The notes beneath the pieces were generated by a model. It saw nothing but the letters and a program-made list of their open reading frames with translations. It was not told where the DNA came from and did no database searches. Shown one piece after another: positions 9,820 to 64,000 of a stretch of 64,000 nt of DNA. The translations under genes were made by a program, and so were the position numbers. Position 1 is the first letter of the stretch. Every line of letters starts with the position of its first letter. Source of the stretch: Bombyx mori (taxonomy: Eukaryota > Arthropoda > Insecta > Lepidoptera > Bombycidae); assembly GCF_030269925.1 (NCBI RefSeq), contig NC_085112.1, positions 16,555,501 to 16,619,500 on the forward strand. Reading direction: 5' to 3'.

Positions 9820-10288
9820 CAATTTTTTGACGTTTCGTGTTAGCTAGAGGGACGTGCGATACCTCAAAAGAAGCGTCTCGACGCGCTCTAGCCAGTGATA
9901 CAGAATTTAAAAATTATTTAGAAGAAAAATTTTTTATTTTTCAGCAAAACAAAAAATTTTTGACGTTTTTGACAGGAAAAGAGAAAATTTTGTATTTCTG
10001 AAGGCGCAGAACGCACTCCAGAAGGTAGGGCGGATCGGTAAGTATATAATAAGTAAGTTGAATTTGCAAAAGCAACAAAATAACTTTGAAAAAATAATGA
10101 ATATTTAAATATTTTCAGGTCGAAAAGGTGGGGGTGTCAAAAAATGACGTCACACCACTGCGATTTCTAGTTTGAAGGGTCGGTGCGTGCTTACAAGCCA
10201 GTTGCACTTTAAAATCGCAAAAAACCGCTTCAAAATAAGCCTCTTGTAAGAAAAGTTATGGAGGGTGATTTTTGGTGTGCAATCACTT
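9820..10288 (+). repeat. 514-bp satellite, first monomer, left-truncated
   Basis: It starts in mid-monomer at AATTTTTTGACG, lacking the first ~46 bases, and runs to GGTGTGCAATCACTT. It then passes into the poly(T) of element copy A. Otherwise it looks the same as the other monomers. Confidence 0.95.
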
Positions 10289-11200
10289 TTTTTTTTTTTT
10301 TTTTTTTTTTCCACAGGAGAAAATCGCCGGATCCCCACCCGCGCGGCAGGTGGGGTATGTGGGAGTTGAACCTCACTAAAAACTCCTGCCGCTCACAACC
10401 GGCGCCCTACCTCGGACCGGGCCGGAGCCCAGTCGGGGCTATTGAAACGGCGGGACAGGGTTGACGCAGAGCACATTACATCCATCCCACCGTCCCACGG
10501 ACGCCGGACCGGTGGCCGCCAGCGAAACGACCACCGGTTCCCTCGTTCAGCGGGCCGAGAGCCCGCTTTGATGGCGCCGCGTTACACCTTCCCCCAGAGC
10601 GGTCGGGGGAACGCGGTCTACCATCACCCGGCTTCCTATTGCGGGTGAGCGTGCAGAGCACGCCACCCCTCGTCTGGGTCCCTCCCCGCACAAAACGGGT
10701 GGGACCCCTAGCTCTTAGGGGGCCAGGTCACGGATACGACCCCGGTCCCGACCCCCTGCTCGGCGGCGGCGGGTTTCTGCGTAGTGAGGAGAGCTTTCCC
10801 TCACTCGCCCCGCCGCCTCCTTCTGCGAGATGGTGCACTCGCAGAAGTCGAGCATAGCCTTCCATGACTCATCGCTGCCAAGCATCGACGCCACGACGCC
10901 AGGCAGCGACAAGTCAGGTCCTATCTTTGCGACCAGGACACGGCGCCGCACCTCCCAAGCGGGGCAGACAGCGAGCGTATGCTCCGCCGTGTCCAGGTCG
11001 TGTCCACAATGGTGACACCTCGTCGTCGGCTCAGCCCCTATCCGGCGCAGGTACTTCCCGAAGCATCCGTGCCCGGTCAGCACCTGCACCAGACGAAAGG
11101 TGAGACGTCCCTCGCCACGATTCACCCAGTCATCAAAGACCGGGTAAACCGCCTCGACGGTCCGTAGCCCCCACGTGGGGTTGGCCAATCGCCTCGACAA
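10289..11200 (-). mobile_element. Satellite-specific R1-clade element, copy A (5' truncated, 0.9 kb)
   Basis: It holds the T run (10287-10310, the reverse of the A tail), the full 3' UTR and the last ~160 codons of ORF2. Homology to the full element ends at 11198; two extra A bases precede the target duplication ggtgtgcaatcactt (11201-11215), which is also present at 10274-10288. The two extra bases may be untemplated additions at the 5' join. Confidence 0.95.
10715..11198 (-). pseudogene. ORF2 C-terminal fragment, copy A
   Basis: It corresponds to residues ~912-1071 of the full ORF2. It keeps the C-terminal zinc finger (C972, C975, H984, C989 in full-length numbering) and lacks all endonuclease and RT motifs. 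It differs from the other copies at residue 995 (Arg instead of Gln). There is no start codon of its own. Confidence 0.9.
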
Positions 11201-11729
11201 GGTGTGCAATCACTTAGGTGGATTTCGCAGTAAAAGTTTGTACGGTGAACGGGTTTTGGTCAATTTTTTGACGTTTCGTGTTAGCTAGAGGGACGTGCGA
11301 TACCTCAAAAGAAGCGTCTCGACGCGCTCTAGCCAGTGATACAGAATTTAAAAATTATTTAGAAGAAAAATTTTTTATTTTTCAGCAAAACAAAAAATTT
11401 TTGACGTTTTTGACAGGAAAAGAGAAAATTTTGTATTTCTGAAGGCGCAGAACGCACTCCAGAAGGTAGGGCGGATCGGTAAGTATATAATAAGTAAGTT
11501 GAATTTGCAAAAGCAACAAAATAACTTTGAAAAAATAATGAATATTTAAATATTTTCAGGTCGAAAAGGTGGGGGTGTCAAAAAATGACGTCACACCACT
11601 GCGATTTCTAGTTTGAAGGGTCGGTGCGTGCTTACAAGCCAGTTGCACTTTAAAATCGCAAAAAACCGCTTCAAAATAAGCCTCTTGTAAGAAAAGTTAT
11701 GGAGGGTGATTTTTGGTGTGCAATCACTT
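11201..11729 (+). repeat. 514-bp satellite monomer between copies A and B
   Basis: A 15-bp target duplication is followed by one exact monomer (11216-11729). The monomer starts at AGGTGGATTTCGCAG and ends with CAATCACTT. It carries the intron-like segment and the TGACGTCA palindrome described for 32624 and 32731. Confidence 0.97.
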
Positions 11730-11759
11730 TTTTTTTTTTTTTTTTTTTTTTTTTTTTTT

Positions 11760-61634: not shown

Positions 61635-62272
61635 TGCAATCACTTAGGTGGATTTCGCAGTAAAAGTTTGTACGGTGAACGGGTTTTGGTCAATTTTTTG
61701 ACGTTTCGTGATAGCTAGAGGGACGTGCGATACCTCAAAAGAAGCGTCTCGACGCGCTCTAGCCAGTGATACAGAATTTAAAAATTATTTAGAAGAAAAA
61801 TTTTTTATTTTTCAGCAAAACAAAAAAAAAAAAAAATTTTTTTTTTTTTTTTTTTTTTTTTTTTTTTTTTTTTTTTTTTTTTTTTTTTTTTTTTTTTTTT
61901 TTTTTTTTTTTTTTTTTTTTTTTTTTTTTTTTTTTTTTTTTTTTTGACGTTTTTGACAGGAAAAGAGAAAATTTTGTATTTCTGAAGGCGCAGAACGCAC
62001 TCCAGAAGGTAGGGCGGATCGGTAAGTATATAATAAGTAAGTTGAATTTGCAAAAGCAACAAAATAACTTTGAAAAAATAATGAATATTTAAATATTTTC
62101 AGGTCGAAAAGGTGGGGGTGTCAAAAAATGACGTCACACCACTGCGATTTCTAGTTTGAAGGGTCGGTGCGTGCTTACAAGCCAGTTGCACTTTAAAATC
62201 GCAAAAAACCGCTTCAAAATAAGCCTCTTGTAAGAAAAGTTATGGAGGGTGATTTTTGGTGTGCAATCACTT
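61635..62272 (+). repeat. Satellite monomer with a large A/T homopolymer expansion
   Basis: Duplication tgcaatcactt, then a monomer of 627 bases (61646-62272) instead of 514. The excess lies in one A/T block (61822-61945). One further substitution near 61711 (GTGATAGC instead of GTGTTAGC). Confidence 0.96.
61822..61945. repeat. A15-T109 homopolymer block inside a satellite monomer
   Basis: Other monomers have A6-T5 at this place. Here there are 15 A followed by about 109 T, an expansion of about 113 bases at a short self-complementary block. Either replication slippage or an assembly/read error; the sequence cannot decide. Confidence 0.85.
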
Positions 62273-63499
62273 TTTTTTTTTTTTTTTTTTTCCACAGGAG
62301 AAAATCGCCGGATCCCCACCCGCGCGGCAGGTGGGGTATGTGGGGGTTGAACCTCACTAAAAACTCCTGCCGCTCACAACCGGCGCCCTACCTCGGACCG
62401 GGCCGGAGCCCAGTCGGGGCTATTGAAACGGCGGGACAGGGTTGACGCAGAGCACATTACATCCATCCCGCCGTCCCACGGACGCCGGACCGGTGGCCGC
62501 CAGCGAAACGACCACCGGTTCCCTCGTTCAGCGGGCCGAGAGCCCGCTTTGATGGCGCCGCGTTACACCTTCCCCCAGAGCGGTCGGGGGAACGCGGTCT
62601 ACCATCACCCGGCTTCCTATTGCGGGTGAGCGTGCAGAGCACGCCACCCCTCGTCTGGGTCCCTCCCCGCACAAAACGGGTGGGACCCCTAGCTCTTAGG
62701 GGGCCAGGTCACGGATACGACCCCGGTCCCGACCCCCTGCTCGGCGGCGGCGGGTTTCTGCGTAGTGAGGAGAGCTTTCCCTCACTCGCCCCGCCGCCTC
62801 CTTCTGCGAGATGGTGCACTCGCAGAAGTCGAGCATAGCCTTCCATGACTCATCGCCGCCAAGCATCGACGCCACGACGCCAGGCAGCGACAAGTCAGGT
62901 CCTATCTTTGCGACCAGGACACGGCGCTGCACCTCCCAAGCGGGGCAGACAGCGAGCGTATGCTCCGCCGTGTCCAGGTCGTGTCCACAATGGTGACACC
63001 TCGTCGTCGGCTCAGCCCCTATCCGGCGCAGGTACTTCCCGAAGCATCCGTGCCCGGTCAGCACCTGCACCAGACGAAAGGTGAGACGTCCCTCGCCACG
63101 ATTCACCCAGTCATCAAAGACCGGGTAAACCGCCTCGACGGTTCGTAGCCCCCACGTGGGGTTGGCCAATCGCCTCGACCACGACTCGAGCACGGACCGC
63201 CGAGAATGGGCCTTCCGCGCCCGCAGCTCACTCTCGGGGACACGCGCCACGCCCCGAGCACGAAGCTCGATGCGCCACCGATAGTCGGCAGCGAGCGACT
63301 CCGCCTCCAGCTCCCATGGCGGCGTCCCCGCCAAAACACACGCCGCCTCGAAGGAGACGGTGCGATATCCGCGGATGACCCTGATGGCAACGGTGCGCTG
63401 CGGCCGGCGCAAGAACCGAGCCATAGTGGCCCGGTTGCGCGGCTCAGCCCACACAGGTGCACCGTACAGGGCCATCGATCGCACCACCCCCGCGTAGAG
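62273..63499 (-). mobile_element. Satellite-specific R1-clade element, copy I (5' truncated, 1.2 kb)
   Basis: T run of 21 bases, 3' UTR and the last ~267 codons of ORF2. Homology ends at about 63499 where GTAGAG runs into gtgtgcaatcactt, with one or two bases of overlap between element and target. Confidence 0.95.
62696..63499 (-). pseudogene. ORF2 C-terminal fragment, copy I
   Basis: It corresponds to residues ~805-1071, with the zinc finger but no endonuclease or RT catalytic motif. Private changes are S881I and S1019G. The few codons added from the satellite give no ATG start. Confidence 0.9.
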
Positions 63500-64000
63500 G
63501 TGTGCAATCACTTAGGTGGATTTCGCAGTAAAAGTTTGTACGGTGAACGGGTTTTGGTCAATTTTTTGACGTTTCGTGTTAGCTAGAGGGACGTGCGATA
63601 CCTCAAAAGAAGCGTCTCGACGCGCTCTAGCCAGTGATACAGAATTTAAAAATTATTTAGAAGAAAAATTTTTTATTTTTCAGCAAAACAAAAAATTTTT
63701 GACGTTTTTGACAGGAAAAGAGAAAATTTTGTATTTCTGAAGGCGCAGAACGCACTCCAGAAGGTAGGGCGGATCGGTAAGTATATAATAAGTAAGTTGA
63801 ATTTGCAAAAGCAACAAAATAACTTTGAAAAAATAATGAATATTTAAATATTTTCAGGTCGAAAAGGTGGGGGTGTCAAAAAATGACGTCACACCACTGC
63901 GATTTCTAGTTTGAAGGGTCGGTGCGTGCTTACAAGCCAGTTGCACTTTAAAATCGCAAAAAACCGCTTCAAAATAAGCCTCTTGTAAGAAAAGTTATGG
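63500..64000 (+). repeat. 514-bp satellite monomer running off the window
   Basis: Target duplication, then the first 487 bases of a standard monomer (63514-64000), ending at AAAAGTTATGG. The array therefore continues beyond the right edge. Confidence 0.97.

Follow-up and report, generated by a model that had tools for sequence, protein, structure and literature searches.

The described systems closest to the locus analyzed here are the telomeric retrotransposons TRAS and SART. As described in excerpts of the source papers, TRAS1 nicks the sequence TT^AGG (PMC2868851, PMC7265360), SART1 requires at least three TTAGG repeats (PMC7265360), and SARTr, a Bombyx SART lineage, appears to be inserted in reversed orientation (PMC10088271). 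We analyzed a 64,000-nucleotide stretch of Bombyx mori DNA (C6:16555501-16619500, hereafter the window) on contig C6, which has 16,776,040 bases and consists of (TTAGG)n over its final 1,000 bases; genome-wide counts were taken over an assembly of 461.67 Mb in 30 contigs. The window holds copies of a LINE nested in a 514-bp array, and the target of this LINE resembles those of the telomeric elements, as it has a TA step within a TTAGG-like core, like the SART family, and its nicked strand reads CTT^AGG, like the TRAS1 site. In contrast to SART, the nested LINE is dispersed and was not found inside telomeric repeats, and its sense strand, CCT^AAG, is the reverse of SART; its ORF2 also sets it apart from the TRAS family, being 26% identical to that of a TRAS copy on C5. 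Like SARTr, it is related to SART and lies in reversed orientation at chromosome ends, and by the description given in excerpts of PMC10088271 the two could be the same family. We consider it highly probable that the cluster was produced by a dispersed, SART-related R1-type LINE with a short target preference, which inserted repeatedly at the only perfect site in the TRAS monomer.

Nine LINE copies at one base of a 514-bp array

Nine non-LTR copies of one family are present in the window, all on the minus strand and all at a single common insertion point in the 514-bp monomers, as the initial annotation had reported. Their poly(A) tails, read here as T-runs, begin immediately after CAATCACTT in 9/9 copies, and the LINE 5' ends adjoin a 12-15 bp target duplication that ends at AGGTGG. 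The window contains 17 copies of the sequence CACTTAGGTGG, on the plus strand only, as compared to a mean of 0.00 in shuffled sequences (n=100). The copies, an example of the target and a neighboring element are as follows:

10289..11200, minus strand: nested LINE E1, 5' truncated
11730..18559, minus strand: nested LINE E2, full length, with ORF2 at 12164-15379 and ORF1 at 15379-17760
19089..25908, minus strand: nested LINE E3, full length, one mismatch from E2
26438..32348, minus strand: nested LINE E4, 5' truncated
34417..37547, minus strand: nested LINE E5, 5' truncated
38077..44102, minus strand: nested LINE E6, 5' truncated
46880..53699, minus strand: nested LINE E7, full length, both ORFs open
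54740..61633, minus strand: nested LINE E8, full length, both ORFs open, interrupted tail of ~93
62273..63498, minus strand: nested LINE E9, 5' truncated
32356..32366, plus strand: example target CACTT^AGGTGG (LINE sense CCACCT^AAGTG), one of 17 in the window
4528..7670, plus strand: 5'-truncated SART-type element inside (GGTTA)n, with an ORF2 58% identical to that of the nested LINE

Four copies (E2, E3, E7 and E8) are full length at 6.8 kb and have both ORF1 (793 aa) and ORF2 (1071 aa) open, and the other five (E1, E4, E5, E6 and E9) are 5' truncated, each at a different point; both counts agree with the initial annotation. The target duplications it described are also present, with measured lengths of 12, 14 or 15 bp in place of its range of 11-15 bp. 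Counted after CACTT, the tails measure 15-45 in eight copies, and that of E8 has a first run of 48, followed by interruptions, and comes to ~93 altogether; with the ambiguous TT added, these values match the range of 17-95 given earlier. Pairwise identity among the nested copies ranges from 98.6% to 99.99%, with up to 60 mismatches, and most copies are therefore regarded as independent insertions. One copied event may account for both E2 and E3, as they differ by a single base in 6,835 and have the same 5' junction, whereas E7 and E8 have a common 5' junction yet differ by 29 mismatches. These junction and sequence differences point to at least eight independent insertions, and the differing truncations and mismatches uphold the earlier view that one R1-type element inserted at one base in mostly independent events.

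The ORF2 of the nested LINE contains an N-terminal AP endonuclease domain (PF14529, 8.3e-23) and a reverse transcriptase domain (PF00078, 1.4e-29), and its best match among PDB sequences is the TRAS1 endonuclease (2.2e-13); by these matches the element is classed as an R1-type APE non-LTR element. ORF1 has CCHC-like spacing by eye and no Pfam match. The neighbor at 4528-7670 is called SART from its orientation in TTAGG, as given in an excerpt of PMC7265360. Residues 5-407 of the nested ORF2, which include the endonuclease, share 49% identity with C6 sequence ~3 kb past the array, and portions of the nested 5'UTR are 77-85% identical to an element on C6 that starts after the (TTAGG)n beyond the array; the two matches are taken as one SART-type element. 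From these pairwise comparisons, in which SART is named by orientation, the nested LINE is classed as a SART relative. A tblastn search of plasmid sequences for protein relatives returned 15 records, the best of them with 23.5% identity across 39% of the query, and the remaining listed matches were group II intron reverse transcriptases.

The array as tandem TRAS 5' modules

The initial annotation had treated the 514-bp unit as an independent satellite. It is instead the 5' end, repeated in tandem, of a telomeric retrotransposon of the TRAS type whose remaining parts adjoin the array:

7688..7714, minus strand: TRAS-type poly(A) tail (T-run), joined to (TTAGG)n at 7671-7687
8095..9555, minus strand: TRAS-type ORF1, 486 aa, 53% identical to the C5 TRAS ORF1
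9556..9816, minus strand: TRAS 5'UTR adjoining the monomer array, with a DNA match to the C5 TRAS
9817..64000, no strand assigned: 514-bp TRAS 5' monomer array, extending past the window to ~C6:16621417

The C6 array is thus bounded by the TRAS 5'UTR at 9816 and by (TTAGG)n at ~C6:16621417. Compared with a single reference monomer, its blocks show 99.4-100% identity, and the window at 9559-9848 is 78% identical in DNA to the C5 TRAS over a 300-column alignment. On C5, (CCTAA)n is followed by monomers, 5'UTR, ORF1, ORF2, poly(A) and again (CCTAA)n. The C5 ORF2 has 1,228 codons without stops and its endonuclease matches TRAS1 (PDB 1wdu) at 4.8e-99; this copy is named TRAS because its ORF2 is TRAS-like and it sits in (TTAGG)n in such a way that its sense strand carries CCTAA. 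C9 and C27 each have one unit, flanked by (TTAGG)n and the TRAS 5'UTR. Some TRAS elements hence carry tandem 5' modules that resemble a subtelomeric satellite: the TRAS elements of the window and three further loci (L061, L069 and L070) have from one to many 514-bp modules between the 5'UTR and the telomeric repeats.

A survey of the monomer gave at least 115 matches (39 of 51 candidates scored). Among the matches listed, arrays and single units near chromosome ends are mostly on the plus strand at right ends and on the minus strand at left ends, the exceptions being C29, where units occur on both strands, and the interior copies of C3 and C28. Among the same matches, the TRAS-side limit of the arrays is monomer position 43, and the telomere-side limit is mostly position 489-492, with C6 (348) as an exception. 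As the arrays have a common outer end, position 489-492 suggests a fixed transcription start and putative promoter monomers. Tandem modules of this kind precede a LINE in the mouse, where they form the promoter monomers of the L1 5'UTR; the TRAS monomers are likewise tandem 5' modules, with a promoter role that is putative. Among the titles and abstract openings listed from the open-licence literature, none concerned tandem 5' modules in TRAS or the nested array, and novelty is not claimed.

Several further observations concern these elements. In the array-side TRAS copy, only the start of ORF2 (~8031-8110, a weak match with E 4.0) is present between ORF1 and the tail, and this copy (7715-8110, minus strand) is without most of ORF2, the break falling just after the conserved LLQEPYV/LIQEPYV stretch. 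An ORF1-only, HeT-A-like telomeric element was considered for this copy and dropped, as the C5 copy has an ORF2 and the window copy keeps its start. A second TRAS ORF1 lies at 2039-3313 on the minus strand and is 42% identical to the C5 TRAS ORF1; its ORF2 stops after ~48 residues, breaking off after the same LLQEPYV/LIQEPYV stretch, and gives way to a 5'-truncated element related to the nested LINE (405-1919, minus strand, 73% identical), so that the unit 405-3313 contains another nested insertion. Within the array, a run of 109 T at 61828-61945 interrupts a monomer between positions 182 and 183, away from the LINE junctions, and a perfect 193-bp tandem duplication occupies 45399-45784 within one monomer. 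The interior array on C28 (C28:4518846-4522906) is far from the chromosome end and has units of ~333 bp that correspond to monomer positions 55-389.

Genome-wide distribution and target motif of the LINE

The exact 19-base 3' end of the LINE has 698 matches genome-wide, a lower bound on its 3' ends, as compared to 0 for the reversed-pattern control. Its last 401 bases have matches at 100% identity on C1-C8 among at least 40 matches (40 of 1,639 first-look candidates scored), and 33 of the 40 scored matches lie outside monomer arrays. Nineteen of these 33 were fetched with both flanks, in a set of 20 stretches that also took in the C3 array copy; the flanks are unrelated sequence, and 18 of the 19 copies have a clear target duplication of their own at a YCT^AAG-like motif, an outcome that the initial annotation had named as contrary to its proposal. 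In the remaining copy of the 19 (L046), no target duplication was seen. Thirteen consecutive As abutting the monomer site were found 14 times genome-wide (nine on C6, four on C29 and one on C3), a count that covers tails of effectively ~11 A or more and misses shorter-tailed insertions, as the last two As of the pattern may be target. One of the four C29 copies (L066) differs at its 3' end and is placed in a related subfamily, and 13 of the 14 monomer-site insertions are therefore assigned to this LINE. Monomer and dispersed copies are intermixed, with one difference between E6 and dispersed L045 and one between E3 and dispersed L058 over 2.95 kb, and a separate array-bound lineage was rejected. 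Since copies are nearly identical, we infer that the LINE was recently active. Direct insertion into telomeric repeats was likewise rejected, as CCTAA repeats were found beside 1/698 tails within the 30-base reach of the pattern, and in this lone case ACGTC lies in between and the tail is not inside the repeat.

The 18 dispersed sites define the target as YCT^AAG, with the exact nick position ambiguous by the As common to target and tail. Position +1 is A in 18/18 sites, -1 is T in 14 or C in four, +3 is G in 13/18 and -2 is C in 12/18. A matrix built from the dispersed sites alone gives the observed base and strand the highest rank among 1,028 monomer positions, the second-ranked position being the same site on the opposite strand. 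In 419/500 bootstraps the highest-scoring position matched the observed site in strand and in the four bases to the left of the nick, a combination available at four places in the monomer. The monomer contains exactly one CCTAAG, and the single CTAAG and single CCTAA that it holds on either strand are both at the insertion site. In leave-one-out scoring, the true dispersed sites ranked from 1 to 111 of 996 local positions (median 11.5), and the motif is therefore real but weak. The predicted share of the top monomer site is 0.31-0.63, varying with matrix width, and an equally good best site was present in 152/500 shuffled monomers.

These data suggest how one base could be used again and again. 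The LINE's own endonuclease would nick a short preferred sequence (YCT^AAG in sense, CTT^AGR on the nicked strand), and the element would then insert by target-primed reverse transcription (TPRT). As tandem modules of a telomeric TRAS element, the monomers hardly differ from one another and would present the same base repeatedly, and because each carries one copy of the preferred sequence, repeated hits would fall on that base; each target duplication would also restore the insertion site. Insertion at the same base throughout an array is thus not proof of specificity for the repeat, as a short endonuclease preference together with identical monomers can fix the base.

Insertion density and alternative explanations

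The motif fixes the base of insertion, not the density, which is not fully explained. Per base of C6 monomer DNA, LINE insertions are ~527 times as frequent as the genome average, and the true ratio is smaller because the 698 matches are a lower bound on 3' ends. The 11-mer target is filled at 9/21 sites on C6 monomers as compared to 0/27 identical 11-mers elsewhere, the latter comprising 26 of 42 sites plus L007 (p = 1.8e-4, or 5.4e-4 when E2 and E3 are counted as one event). In the monomer arrays on C5, C7, C12, C19, C24 and C26, the 11-mer is present, the arrays are contiguous and no poly(A) junction was found. Array-specific history or chromatin may be a factor in the density.

An addition to the motif preference, and compatible with it, is that the LINE is drawn to a class of telomeric chromatin as a remnant of SART-type targeting, which we regard as possible though unlikely. 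It would account for the ~527-fold density, the contrast between filled and empty 11-mers and the further filled arrays on C29 and C3, and it fits the SART relationship of the LINE; against this, arrays of the same kind on the six contigs without a junction have received no insertion, and only 1/698 tails lies beside CCTAA repeats, with ACGTC between and within a 30-base reach. Equally tentative is a fuller scenario, in which a SART descendant ceased to depend on telomeric repeats, switched to the opposite orientation and dispersed through the genome, keeping a residual attraction to TRAS arrays as a sink. Were it true, the TRAS 5' modules, with one CCTAAG per monomer, would be a landing strip for the descendant of another telomeric retrotransposon. 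The telomere-bound SART and its dispersed relative form a natural pair for studying the loss of target choice.

Growth of the array, in which a few insertions were multiplied by unequal exchange or conversion, is improbable as the main source of the cluster: the near identity of the monomers and the pair E2/E3, one base apart with the same junction, are what it would produce, whereas five truncation points, three duplication lengths, tails from 15 to ~93 and up to 60 mismatches between copies are not. Strict specificity for the 514-bp unit, the proposal of the initial annotation, is hardly tenable and was rejected, as the 9/9 array copies at one base with five different truncations and the four more copies in the C29 and C3 arrays are outweighed by the dispersed copies, which lie in unrelated sequence with target duplications of their own, and by the 685/698 exact 3' ends that lack the monomer junction, only 13/698 being found at the monomer site with a pattern that needs a tail of ~11 A or more.

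Apart from the LINE with its short target preference, the same monomer site on C29 (C29:40270-47160) is occupied by a related subfamily with a different 3' end (loci L065 and L066), and the site therefore attracts more than one subfamily.
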